Source: an uncultured Bacteroidales bacterium
GTDB taxonomy: Bacteria; Bacteroidota; Bacteroidia; Bacteroidales; P3
Length of the DNA: 50,976 nt
Assembly: GCA_946406015.1 (NCBI GenBank)
Contig: CAMJJD010000010.1
Span: 1 to 50,976, forward strand
Direction of reading: 5' to 3'
The notes below the pieces were generated by a model that saw only the letters and a program-made list of their open reading frames with translations, did no database searches and was not told where the DNA came from. Positions 2,500 to 47,925 of the stretch are shown here, piece by piece (position 1 is the stretch's first letter; every line of letters begins with the position of its first letter). Made by a program: the position numbers and the translations under genes.

Positions 2500-3693
2500 C
2501 TATTTTTTAAATTTTCTATTGCTTGATAACGGCAAAAGTATTAATATAGTATTTGCGATGGCAAAATAAATTTCAAAGAATGGTGCGGCGAGGTGCACGT
2601 AGCCACCTTCGAAACGCTTGGTGAGGCGGGAGAAGCAGACGATCTGCCAGGCCCATTTTATGGCTACGGCGGCGGCCACGACGACCCAGGGCAAGGTGCC
2701 GCGCAGGATCAGCAGCACGGCGACTGCGTAGAAGAGCAGGCTTGTCCAACCCGGCATGCTCTCGCGCAGCCGGTCGATGAACCGGTGGCGGTTGCGGGTG
2801 CCCACACGGTGGCGCCGTTCGTCGTGCCACTGGTAGAAGTGTTTGCGGGGTTCCACCGAGAGGCAGGCGTCGCTGTCGATGCAGATGGCTGTGTTCCGGC
2901 GGTTGGCATTCTGGTAGACGAAGAGGTCGTCGCTCCCGTCGGCCACGTCGTAGTGGCGGATGAAGGCCCCCTGGCTGAAGAAGAAGGAACGTCGATAGCT
3001 GAGGTTGCGTCCCGAGCCGGTGTAGGGGTGTCCCATCAGGGCGGCGCCGAGGTACTGTGAGCCGTAGGCCAGTGCGTCGTACTGCTGCAGGCAGCCCAGC
3101 AGGCTCTTCGAGCGCTTCACGCCGCAGTAGCCGAGCACAATCTGGATTGCTTGATTGCTTGAATGTTTTATTGTTTGAGTGTTTTTATCCCCCGCCGCGG
3201 GGACGCGGTAGCCGCGCACCATGCCGCGCAACCACAGCAGGTTCTTGGGTGTGCAGTCGGGGTCGGCCAGCATCAGGATGTCGTTCTTGGCGCTTTTGAT
3301 GCCGATGGAGAGGGGATATTTCTTTCCCTGGAAGAGGTTCACGTCCTCCTTGAAGGGCACCACTTTCAGGTGGGGGTAGTAGTCTTTGAGCAACTTAAGC
3401 ACGAATTCGGTCTCGTCGCTCGAAAGGTAGTTGACCACCACCACCTCGAAGTCGGGATAGTCCTGTTCGAGGAGGTAGACGAGGTTCTCCTTGAGCCAGG
3501 CGGCGTCGTTGCGGGCCGTGAGCACCACGCTCACCGGCGGCAGCGGGTCGAGTTCCGGACTCTGGGTTCTGTATCGGCCCACGCGGAAGTGGTACAGGCC
3601 ATAGTACAGACACAAATATATCATCGACAGCAGCAGCAATGCCGCCAGCGCAATAGCGTAGCTATCAGTGAGAAAATGACTAAAATCGAACAT
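2500..3693 (-). CDS. family 2 glycosyltransferase, membrane-anchored
   Basis: A 397-residue GT2 enzyme. An N-terminal membrane helix covers about residues 13-32. The GT-A nucleotide-binding start is PPVSVVLTARND (52-63), the acidic motif LADPDC is at 142-147, and YTGSGRNLSYRRS follows near residue 224. Two to three C-terminal membrane helices lie from about residue 315. The sugar donor and acceptor are unknown; cell-envelope glycan synthesis is the usual role. Residues 164-184 (DNA 3142-3204) look like an in-frame insertion: the DNA there is degenerate octamers such as ATTGCTTG and interrupts an otherwise normal stretch (MVRGYR...IVLGYCG). A -7 box lies 24 bp upstream of the start. Confidence 0.88.
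   Translation of the reverse strand: MFDFSHFLTDSYAIALAALLLLSMIYLCLYYGLYHFRVGRYRTQSPELDPLPPVSVVLTARNDAAWLKENLVYLLEQDYPDFEVVVVNYLSSDETEFVLKLLKDYYPHLKVVPFKEDVNLFQGKKYPLSIGIKSAKNDILMLADPDCTPKNLLWLRGMVRGYRVPAAGDKNTQTIKHSSNQAIQIVLGYCGVKRSKSLLGCLQQYDALAYGSQYLGAALMGHPYTGSGRNLSYRRSFFFSQGAFIRHYDVADGSDDLFVYQNANRRNTAICIDSDACLSVEPRKHFYQWHDERRHRVGTRNRHRFIDRLRESMPGWTSLLFYAVAVLLILRGTLPWVVVAAAVAIKWAWQIVCFSRLTKRFEGGYVHLAAPFFEIYFAIANTILILLPLSSNRKFKK
3142..3204 (-). repeat. octamer-type repeat inserted in-frame in GT2 gene
   Basis: Plus-strand units ATTGCTTG (twice, tandem), AATGTTTT, ATTGTTTG and AGTGTTTT run together from about 3146, followed by a GC-rich palindromic piece CCCCGCCGCGGGG. The segment is 63 nt (21 codons) and leaves the reading frame intact. 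It resembles the intergenic arrays of this window rather than codon-biased coding DNA. Confidence 0.65.
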
Positions 3694-4911: not shown

Positions 4912-5033
4912 CATTCCACCAGCAGGCGGCGCGTGGCGACGTCGAGGGTGTAGGAGGCCCCCGAGACGCGCTCATGCCGCAGCTCGCGGCCTCCGAGGTC
5001 GCACAGCGTCAGCTCGGCGCCAGAATAGTGTAG
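4912..5033 (-). pseudogene. remnant of a T9SS type A sorting domain
   Basis: One minus-strand frame reads SGAELTLCDLGGRELRHE, then a short strand-rich tail, and ends RRLLVE and a TGA stop at 4912-4914. The pattern LxLxDLGGRxL is the core of T9SS type A C-terminal domains (compare VSVYDVGGRRLK in the M14 peptidase of this window). Only about 38 residues remain, with no start codon or upstream domain, so it looks like the tail of a decayed or truncated gene. Chance resemblance cannot be excluded for so short a piece. Confidence 0.45.
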
Positions 5034-5178
5034 TAAAAAACGGCCTTAGTCGGGCTGTTTGTCTGGGTGTTCTACGCCATTTCTTCGGGAAAAAGCGAAG
5101 AAGTACCGAAGAAACGGCAGGGGTAGGAGGGTGTTGACATCCTCAAAACGGCCATTGGTTATCAACTGTTTAGCTGCT

Positions 5179-5224
5179 GTTCTTTTACTGTTCTAAAAGA
5201 ACGCCTAAAGAACAGTTAATGAAC
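5179..5224. repeat. 46-bp GTTC/GAAC element, copy A1
   Basis: Boxes are GTTC 5179-5182, GTTC 5190-5193, GAAC 5210-5213 and GAAC 5221-5224, spaced N7, N16 and N7. The two N7 spacers are complementary at 5 of 7 positions. Thirteen bases after the last box comes TTGAAAAAGAGT (5238-5249), also found at the same distance from copy B. Confidence 0.8.
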
Positions 5225-5264
5225 AGAAAGTAAATGGTTGAAAAAGAGTCTCTCCAGATTTTGC

Positions 5265-5284
5265 TGACGCGGCACGCCGCGTCC
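5265..5284. repeat. 20-bp GGCACGCC-centred palindrome, intergenic copy
   Basis: GACGCGGC and GCCGCGTC pair around a 2-nt centre AC. Related copies lie inside the anti-sigma-like gene at 7467-7486, 7561-7580 and 7630-7649. Confidence 0.7.
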
Positions 5285-5332
5285 ATACAAAGCGGGATTG
5301 TAAACTGCTGTTTCCTTGTGATTTGTATATCA

Positions 5333-5378
5333 GTTCGACTTGCGTTCAACTTGAATTCAAGTTGAACGCAAGTTGAAC
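5333..5378. repeat. 46-bp GTTC/GAAC element, copy A2
   Basis: Boxes lie at 5333, 5344, 5364 and 5375 (GTTC, GTTC, GAAC, GAAC) with spacers N7, N16 and N7. The whole 46 bp is a palindrome with one mismatched pair and GAATTC at its centre. Confidence 0.9.
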
Positions 5379-23248: not shown

Positions 23249-23294
23249 GTTCTTTAGGTGTTCTTTACAAATCCGTAAAGAACACCTAAAGAAC
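23249..23294. repeat. 46-bp GTTC/GAAC element, copy B
   Basis: Boxes lie at 23249, 23260, 23280 and 23291 (GTTC, GTTC, GAAC, GAAC). The outer 20 bp on each side are fully complementary (TTTAGGT/ACCTAAA spacers) and the central 6 nt form the loop. TTGAAAAAGAGT follows at 23308-23319, at the same distance as in copy A1. Confidence 0.92.
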
Positions 23295-39284: not shown

Positions 39285-39345
39285 GTAAAGTTTAAAGTTT
39301 ACGGTTTATAGTTTACAGTTTGCAGTTTGCGGTTTTGCTGGCCGC
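39285..39345. repeat. heptamer tract (AGTTTAC/CAGTTTG) upstream of uppP
   Basis: Degenerate tandem heptamers AAGTTTA, CGGTTTA, TAGTTTA, CAGTTTG, CAGTTTG fill the gap between uppP and the DUF3098 gene. The same family occurs at about 11400-11425 and 30560-30590. Confidence 0.85.
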
Positions 39346-40482: not shown

Positions 40483-40562
40483 CTTTCAACTTTTAACTTT
40501 TAACACTTAACACTCAACACTTAACACTTAACACTTAACACTCAACACTTAACACTCAACTC
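40483..40562. repeat. heptamer array (TTAACAC / CTTTCAA) between dnaN and ftsX
   Basis: Tandem CAACTTTC and CTTTTAA units pass into about nine copies of ACTTAAC/ACTCAAC heptamers, the reverse complement of the TTAAGTG family at 2243-2440. The array fills the whole gap between the dnaN stop and the ftsX start. Confidence 0.92.
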
Positions 40563-45297: not shown

Positions 45298-45343
45298 GTT
45301 CTTTTCCTTTTCCATAAGAACAGTAAAAAGACAGTAAAGGAAC
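45298..45343. repeat. 46-bp GTTC/GAAC element, copy C1 (degenerate)
   Basis: Outer boxes GTTC (45298) and GAAC (45340) are intact. The inner boxes read TTTC (45309) and AGAC (45329) at the expected positions. The N16 spacer matches that of copy A1 at 10 of 16 positions, including AAGAAC. Confidence 0.65.
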
Positions 45344-45395
45344 GGCAAAAGGATGGTGAAGGTTAATCCGTTGTTTCTTAATCTGTTATATTGGT

Positions 45396-45441
45396 GTTCT
45401 TCTTACGTTCTTCTCGAATTCGAGAAGAACGTAAGAAGAAC
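45396..45441. repeat. 46-bp GTTC/GAAC element, copy C2 (perfect palindrome)
   Basis: Boxes lie at 45396, 45407, 45427 and 45438. All 23 base pairs of the palindrome match, with GAATTC at the centre and no loop. Confidence 0.95.
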
Positions 45442-45523
45442 GTCTGAATAAGATAAGTGTTAAGTAGCAAGTGTTGTGTGTTAAGTGTTATGCTTTTTTT
45501 TATGTTGTTTCAAAAAAAAGATG

Positions 45524-47674: not shown

Positions 47675-47925
47675 AATGTTTAATGTTTTGGGGGAGTTAA
47701 AGAAGTTAAAGAAGTTAAAGACAAATGTGTGAATGCGTTTATGAGTCTTTGAGTCCTTAAGTCTTTGAGTCGTTGAGTCCTTGAGTCTTTGTGTCTTTGA
47801 GTCCAATTCTTCATTCTTAATTCTTAATTCTTAATTCTTAATTCTTAATTCTTCATTCTTCATTTCCCTTTCACTCCTTTTCTACTCTACGACTTCCAGG
47901 TCCGCTCATTGACTCAAGGACTCAG
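47675..47925. repeat. chain of short tandem repeats between lipoprotein and AraC genes
   Basis: In order: TTAATGT units; AGTTAAAGA 9-mers (about 47697-47722); GAGTCTTT octamers (about 47740-47800); TTAATTC and TTCATTC heptamers (about 47805-47868); then CTTTTC and GACTCAAGGACTCAG units running up to the AraC stop codon. No gene is seen. Confidence 0.92.

Follow-up and report, generated by a model that had tools for sequence, protein, structure and literature searches.

Short four-box elements are repeated between the genes of the genome analysed here, and the intergenic DNA of its genus carries arrays with an 11-bp period, built as hairpins or as direct repeats, that are rare in sister genera. 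The explanation that we tentatively prefer, at slightly below an even chance, is that the elements are dispersed, non-coding, REPIN-like hairpins made of one-turn modules and read at the DNA level by a putative factor. The window, by which we mean the whole stretch of 50,976 nucleotides that was analysed, corresponds to contig 10 in a draft genome of 2.2 Mb (124 contigs, 80.6% complete; G000, or the own genome, below).

Architecture, copy number and range of the elements

An earlier note on this DNA had described five 46-bp elements of fixed architecture. Four of them match the pattern GTTC-N7-GTTC-N16-GAAC-N7-GAAC exactly, whereas the fifth, at 45298, has three box mismatches; the spacing of the boxes in the window copies was as the note gave it, and three copies (those at 5333, 23249 and 45396) are strongly self-complementary, in agreement with the number of self-complementary copies that the note gave. 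From centre to centre the boxes are 11, 20 and 11 bp apart, by arithmetic a span of 42 bp, equal to 4.0 turns at 10.5 bp per turn. With up to three mismatches allowed, the window contained 10 matches, overlapping ones shifted by 11 bp included, against a mean of 0.26 and a largest value of 2 in 100 shuffles. The repeated four-box elements are thus a real feature of this DNA. The features are given below, without assignment to a strand.

5069..5114: degenerate copy with three box mismatches, from the pattern scan with mismatches and the count of self-complementary positions
5154..5167: outer left stretch ATTGGTTATCAACT of the 5179 element, which fits the weak outer motif of the own-genome copies (arm profile)
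5179..5224: exact four-box element, TTTTACT family, imperfect palindrome with 16/23 positions self-complementary
5236..5248: outer right stretch GGTTGAAAAAGAG of the 5179 element, from the sequence and the arm profile
5333..5378: exact four-box element, AACTTGC family, 22/23 palindromic; the paralogous site L040 has other arms, which also pair
23249..23294: exact four-box element, TTTAGGT family, 21/23 self-complementary; an element also lies at the orthologous site in genome G042
45298..45343: degenerate copy with three box mismatches, 12/23 self-complementary; the orthologous gap of G042 holds a copy much like it
45371..45470: probable full extent of the 45396 element, a block that aligns with its own reverse complement over 100 bp
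45396..45441: exact four-box element and perfect 46-bp palindrome (23/23), TTCTTAC family; no counterpart was seen in the orthologous gap of G042

The claim of a copy number far above chance was borne out genome-wide, as the own draft genome contained 20 exact matches and the control none. At up to two mismatches 67 matches were found, overlapping shifted ones counted, and none for a control pattern read backwards. Several contigs end at an element, as at a true repeat. An assembly artefact was considered and rejected, as copies lie inside long contigs of several assemblies, with conserved flanks for at least some of them.

Gene context, read from calls based on ORFs and codon usage, was assigned to 43 own copies (overlaps merged), a part of those behind the 67 matches. 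Divergent gaps held 18 of them, tandem gaps 19 and convergent gaps 5; one could not be classed and none was inside a gene. The 61 copies read in relatives comprised 17 divergent, 17 tandem, 10 convergent and 16 unclassed ones, and one inside a called gene. Restriction to divergent gaps, as proposed earlier, therefore holds within the window and is wrong genome-wide (18/43 divergent), because tandem and convergent gaps also hold copies. Avoidance of gene interiors was found again (0/43 own copies, 1/61 in relatives), and avoidance of convergent gaps was not (5 of the 42 classable own copies, 10/44 in relatives). A two-fold enrichment of copies between divergent genes is likely: the divergent share was 35/86 copies versus 25/122 gaps of other species (p = 0.002), where the 86 are own and relative copies minus 17 unclassed and one inside a gene, copies and gaps are unlike units and some gaps hold two copies. 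The comparison gaps measured at least 80 bp and came from unselected stretches. The convergent share was not depleted (15/86 copies versus 24/122 gaps, p = 0.72).

Among 190 genomes of the family, the exact pattern was present in 13, all of them among the 120 of the own genus, and in none of the 70 genomes from the family's other 11 genera. Positive genomes carried 1 to 47 exact copies, 185 in total, and the control gave 0 in every genome; the spacing was thus found again in 12 further genomes of the genus. A sample of 393 genomes from the whole order, which includes three of the same family but another genus and two of the own genus, matched in the own genome and in one other, there with a single copy that is weakly palindromic by eye. 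Because the pattern demands GTTC and N16, other forms are undercounted in these figures.

A scan of named genomes returned at least 108 matching stretches, 80 of them listed. Of the 80 loci listed, 35 were inspected, 31 of these outside the Bacteroidales; they gave 36 matches, five with fully palindromic N7 (L150, L182, L204, L211 and L212), and the other inspected matches look like chance or LexA-like ones. Fourteen genomes behind such loci held between 1 and 6 matches each when up to one mismatch was allowed. In the Micrococcales, GTTC matches with this spacing that are fully palindromic, or nearly so, occur at L150 (Cryobacterium), L182 (Antribacter) and L211 (Isoptericola), with 1, 3 and 6 matches per genome, respectively, at up to one mismatch. 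Carriage by phages was rejected; in 17 stretches of viral contigs N7 was palindromic in at most 5/7 positions.

Alphaproteobacterial LexA binds GTTC-N7-GTTC. SOS boxes of this type would share with the elements the direct repeat and its spacing, which are identical, and among the alphaproteobacterial matches some lack palindromy in N7, which is what such operators would show. The elements themselves differ from a LexA operator in their number of up to tens of copies per genome, in the inverted second half that sets the boxes in inverted pairs, in the complementary, palindromic N7 and in their presence in convergent gaps; moreover, sister species of the genus use 11-bp units without GTTC. The eight window neighbours of the elements are CorA, an unmatched protein, a nitroreductase, a DHH protein, a cyclophilin, an OmpR-type regulator, a P-domain/type IX protein and FTCD, with no obvious SOS gene among them. 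An identity as LexA-type SOS boxes is scarcely credible.

Complementarity of the arms and predicted hairpins

The covariation of the arms that had been claimed for a few copies proved to be strong in copies from 13 genomes of the genus. All 81 exact copies from the fetched loci (of the 185) were aligned without gaps, giving 63 distinct rows from 13 genomes. The 16 box columns are uninformative because the search pattern fixes them; GTTC pairs with GAAC inside the stem in all 81 copies, as the pattern demands, and box identity is no independent evidence. Paired cells made up 92.7% versus 72.4% after shuffling, double-changed cells numbered 265 versus 84 (sd 7.7), and the covariation score was 0.490 versus 0.124 in shuffles and 0.159 in the best slid version. 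None of 500 shuffles reached the observed paired fraction, double-changed count or score, in a kind of test that relatedness of the copies can inflate. In the 20-pair hairpin all 12 free pairs show changes on both sides, a number that does not discriminate (11.6 in shuffles, reached by 323/500), and neither does the number of pair types (42 versus 39.3, reached by 68/500). The N7 families vary among genomes; most arms stay complementary all the same.

The 18 distinct copies of G000 allowed partner and neighbour to be compared directly. The last four N7 bases were 0.97 complementary to the partner and 0.43 identical to the neighbouring direct unit. A swap of right arms between near-family copies lowered the match from 0.97 to 0.79 in G000 (52 ordered pairs), from 0.99 to 0.79 in G055 (12 pairs) and from 0.99 to 0.86 in G088 (22 pairs). 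The pairing in G000 belongs to each individual element, and G055 and G088 agree with this. In G042 the near-family swap caused no drop (0.90 and 0.90, 12 pairs), and this genome has hybrid copies with arms from two families. The outer arms of G012 pair poorly (0.41), with 0.39 both before and after the near-family swap (10 pairs). These arms of G012, together with the swap result and the hybrids of G042, indicate that pairing of the whole arm is not required.

Change at fixed sites was followed in orthologous pairs of the own genome and G042, taken from loci selected for holding elements; three orthologous gaps contain elements in both genomes. At site A (L025/L067) the outer motifs and the boxes are kept and the N7 letters differ, with outer arms 7/7 complementary in both. 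Site B (window 23249/L069) has the same inner stem and different outer arms, 7/7 complementary in the own genome and 3/7 in G042. At site C (window 5179 and 5333 versus L068) number and family of the elements differ. The paralogous pair of window 5333 and L040 has second hairpins with different arms, 6/7 complementary in both. Both arms have changed in step at one orthologous and one paralogous site, and have not done so at the second orthologous site. The window at 5070-5378 and L040 at 2898-3217, on different contigs of the own genome, share about 320 bp that are 83% identical and include two elements.

The gap upstream of the FTCD gene was an unselected one. A copy of the 45298 type is common to the own genome and G042, the 45396 element is without a counterpart in the latter, and G014 and G085/G076 carry unrelated 11-bp units at the same place. 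In the best 30 of the 101 genomes with this gene, an 11-bp array (at least 15/20 matches) was present in the gap of 17/30 species, the own genome included, versus lag 10 in one, lag 12 in none and lag 7 in four; mononucleotide shuffles gave lag 11 in none. A hairpin scoring at least 12 was present in 6/30, one of them A+T-rich and without an array. The DHH-cyclophilin gap was recognisable in 5/30 genomes, with arrays in three (G019, G042 and G120), a hairpin with a lag-11 score of only 13 in the own genome and a short gap without hairpin in G020. Four more of the 25 genomes in which the DHH gene was not seen in place reach the array threshold, one of these within low-complexity sequence and another next to masked bases.

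Very stable RNA hairpins were predicted on both strands of the window copies (fold z -3.5 to -9.5 over 8 strands), with stems of about 20 bp in the three good copies, and one G046 copy had more than 50 pairs. This stability would suit an RNA element, i.e. an attenuator, mRNA stabiliser, small RNA or bidirectional terminator, as would the five convergent own gaps in which hairpins lie 25-47 bp from both called gene ends. The strands, however, did not behave accordingly: in 36 tandem-gap copies the sense strand folded better in just 12 and the antisense strand in 21, three being within 0.5 kcal/mol, and sense G-U numbered 12 versus 18 A-C. A T-tract after the hairpin (at least 5 T in 9) was found in 4/86 tails versus 249/6200 random 9-mers, and an intrinsic terminator was rejected on this about random rate. 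An Rfam search of the window at gathering thresholds returned only a partial tRNA at 1-54. The regulatory RNA among the earlier proposals thus found no confirmation, and an RNA element in general is highly improbable. The lack of sense-strand preference, of T-tracts and of a relevant Rfam match fits a role at the DNA level.

The 11-bp module and its possible causes

Beyond the four boxes, the arms are rows of 11-bp modules. In 86 flanks of the own genome, an excess of T was seen at -21/-20 and -10/-9, counted outward from the outermost GTTC, and the outer part, at about -24 to -15, holds a loose motif resembling CTGnTTTTCA. At five element loci the sequence aligns with its own reverse complement over 90-108 bp (blocks of at least 90 bp were considered). 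The 13 distinct framed copies of G046 have a core of 92 bp (81 bp in one copy) with four modules per arm, flanked by conserved ends of about 14 bp, and near-identical copies lie at separate sites of this genome. Past these ends conservation dropped almost to background, apart from weak signals at -20, -22 and -33 (25 flanks); the G046 arm motif had 171 and 169 matches on the two strands at up to two mismatches. The centre is usually N16, and N17 also occurs, in G034 and G055.

Tentatively, the preferred hairpin would be an element of about 100-120 bp with two inverted arms of 11-bp modules (GTTC and seven free bases) around a centre of 16-17 bp, which would persist and spread as a DNA unit. 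A putative factor would read the GTTC boxes, one per helical turn, plus the hairpin or cruciform of the arms. The N7 letters might drift provided that the arms stay mostly complementary, and families would rise and fall within each genome, with the result that arrays would diverge between species. Hairpin formation in vivo, a trans-acting factor and movement of copies are what we infer here. Counted against this explanation are that no transposase or binding protein was identified, the 3/7 pairing at site B in G042, the G012 arms, the G042 hybrids and the direct-only arrays described below.

The 11-bp period extends beyond the elements. In 20 unselected stretches of the genus, similarity at lag 11 (16/20) was found in 15/122 gaps, spread over 10/20 genomes, and in 0/231 genes, and in 20 stretches from other genera in 1/97 gaps and 1/256 genes. 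The same 122 gaps showed lag 8 in 10, lag 22 in 9, lags 7, 16 and 24 in 7 each, lag 12 in 6 and lag 10 in 1, so that 11 is the commonest period, not the sole one. At 29 FTCD loci of relatives, lag 11 occurred in 13/45 gaps, lag 22 in 6, lag 7 in 4 and lags 10, 12 and 21 in none, with lag 11 in 1/80 coding sequences. According to TRF, period 11 was the commonest at the FTCD loci of relatives (38/124 arrays), and at the own loci period 7 (67 arrays) exceeded period 11 (59). Element loci of relatives had lag 22 in 18 gaps and 21 in 1, lag 33 in 7 and 32 in 2; the own genome was not discriminating (lag 22 in 6 gaps, lag 21 in 5, confounded by 7-bp arrays, and lag 33 in 0). Some 11-bp arrays are palindromic and others consist of direct repeats alone, CATAGGAGAAA and GTACGGTGCAT being examples of their units. 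Relatives commonly have 11-bp arrays that lack the four-box palindrome, and direct-only arrays of other species show no evident hairpin. G120 uses one unit at two sites about 58 kb apart.

Arrays of other kinds were also observed. Repeats of 7, 8, 14 and 16 bp (TTAACAC-like, TGAGTCTT-like) are common between genes, in the window at 39289-39335, 40486-40560 and 47742-47803 and at other loci. L037 carries at 4915-5069 a 45-bp unit repeated 3.5 times, each unit combining a hairpin with a T-run, which resembles a series of terminators. In three other genera (g6, g9 and g10; L270, L276 and L278, respectively), intergenic arrays with a 21-bp period are A+T-rich and partly inverted, and lag 11 was not seen there; these are possibly the two-turn counterpart of the 11-bp arrays.

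The main rival to the hairpin, which we regard as rather unlikely, is that an architectural or regulatory protein would bind a helically phased array of sites, each protomer reading GTTC and part of N7 on one face of B-DNA. The specificity of the protein would drift between species and the sites follow. The symmetry would then need no base pairing, since the arms would be the same site in opposite orientation. The span of the boxes over 4.0 helical turns, the over-represented T in the G000 flanks, the excess of divergent gaps and the recurrence of arrays upstream of the same gene (FTCD gap, 17/30 species) all speak for such an array. Of the rivals, it best fits the direct-only arrays, the G042 hybrids, the G012 arms and site B of G042, which keep the 11-bp step without full pairing. 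It is at odds with the complementarity to the partner in G000 (0.97), which is far above the identity with the direct unit (0.43), with near-family copies that vary in matched pairs and with convergent gaps that are not avoided. In addition, the longer arrays of relatives keep a step of 11 and not 10.5 bp (lag 22 in 18 gaps, 21 in 1) and consequently drift off one B-DNA face.

An improbable alternative is a neutral by-product without any reader, in which slippage would make the 11-bp units and fold-back template switching would make or perfect the palindromes. Such a process would account for complementarity without selection, for direct-only arrays, for units being added or lost in 11-bp steps (G046 cores of 81 and 92 bp) and for rarity in genes (0/231 unselected coding sequences, 1/80 at FTCD loci), and it agrees with the occurrence of other periods (lags 8, 7 and 12 in 10, 7 and 6 of the 122 gaps; TRF period 7 ahead of 11, 67 versus 59, at the own loci). 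It may hold for the palindromy itself, but does not explain why GTTC at this spacing recurs in 13 genomes with different N7; the near-identical copies at separate G046 sites would need copying between loci, and the sister genera sampled have far fewer lag-11 arrays (1/97 gaps).

A broader proposal, which we consider unlikely, is a genus-wide system that conserves geometry over sequence. Here the factor would recognise the 11-bp pitch and the two-fold symmetry, and the letters would be replaced genome by genome in concert. If so, these would be bacterial hairpin satellites with a copying machinery of their own, unrelated to RAYT, whose positions outlive their sequences. If the preferred hairpin explanation holds, the elements would form a class of dispersed palindromes with a one-helical-turn module and freely co-varying arms, and would offer a natural experiment on the upkeep of palindromes, be it by selection for a hairpin, an enzyme that copies them or repair from a template. 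Breaks of short-read assemblies coincide with the elements, which differ between neighbouring species at the same site; together with the roughly two-fold excess in divergent gaps, this makes them relevant to how genomes evolve, and perhaps to regulation, in ruminant-gut Bacteroidales. Which factor would read GTTC at 11-bp steps becomes a question that experiments can address directly.

Comparison with known systems

A description of 11-bp modular palindromes in this bacterial group was not found in the literature searched, which is no proof of absence from print; the earlier statement that no family with this layout had been described agrees with this. OmpR/PhoB-type operators are head-to-tail 11-bp direct repeats, from which the elements differ by their inverted arms, genome-wide dispersal and species-specific sequence families. 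Integron attC sites fold as hairpins from a single strand, carry short GTT/AAC boxes and conserve little of their sequence; the elements resemble them in these respects and differ in the opposite order of the boxes and the 11-bp repetition. MITEs and enterobacterial ERIC-like elements are palindromic, intergenic, dispersed and non-coding, with about 100-130 bp. The elements share with them size, palindromy, intergenic dispersal and the lack of coding capacity, but have hypervariable arms and boxes every 11 bp, and no target-site duplication was seen by eye in the 13 G046 copies. Of the three candidates in the earlier note, a putative non-autonomous mobile element is the best.

REPs, according to PMC3733652, bear an unpaired tag, GTAG or CGTC, and their stems are 5-13 bp long; REPINs, according to PMC3116915, have conserved boxes and a pairing spacer with compensating changes; and TnpA-REP, according to PMC8266576, reads GTAG and the hairpin to varying degrees. 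Measured against these descriptions, the elements resemble REPs and REPINs in being intergenic, with many copies per genome, boxes and a pairing spacer that keeps its length, in compensating changes, in families per genome and in two-family hybrids (PMC3116915, PMC3733652). Intergenic dispersal combined with a compensating hairpin is therefore a feature common to both. Unlike in the REPs described there, the boxes are paired inside the stem, an unpaired terminal GTAG is missing, and an 11-bp module is repeated along each arm. Neither a GTAG nor a CGTC tag stands out in the arm profile of the 86 own flanks. The stems measure at least 20 bp versus 5-13 bp, with about 20 bp in the three good window copies.

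A profile search of 190 genomes for Y1 transposases gave a match in 85 of them, and none in the draft genomes G046 (89% complete) and G055 (83% complete). Lag-11 arrays were found at 0/20 Y1 loci, taken from a longer match list, within 250 bp upstream and 300 bp downstream. A RAYT/Y1 transposase as the mover was rejected on these two results. Many flanks of the Y1/RAYT-like genes at L284-L303 carry short palindromes in repeated order (CCCCGTAGGGG, GCCGTTTCAACGGC, TGCCGAAGGCA), which look like a Bacteroidales set of REP-like repeats. As tested, the element of the window is not a member of the REP/RAYT group, because tag, stem length and association with RAYT all fail, and it works most like the REPINs.
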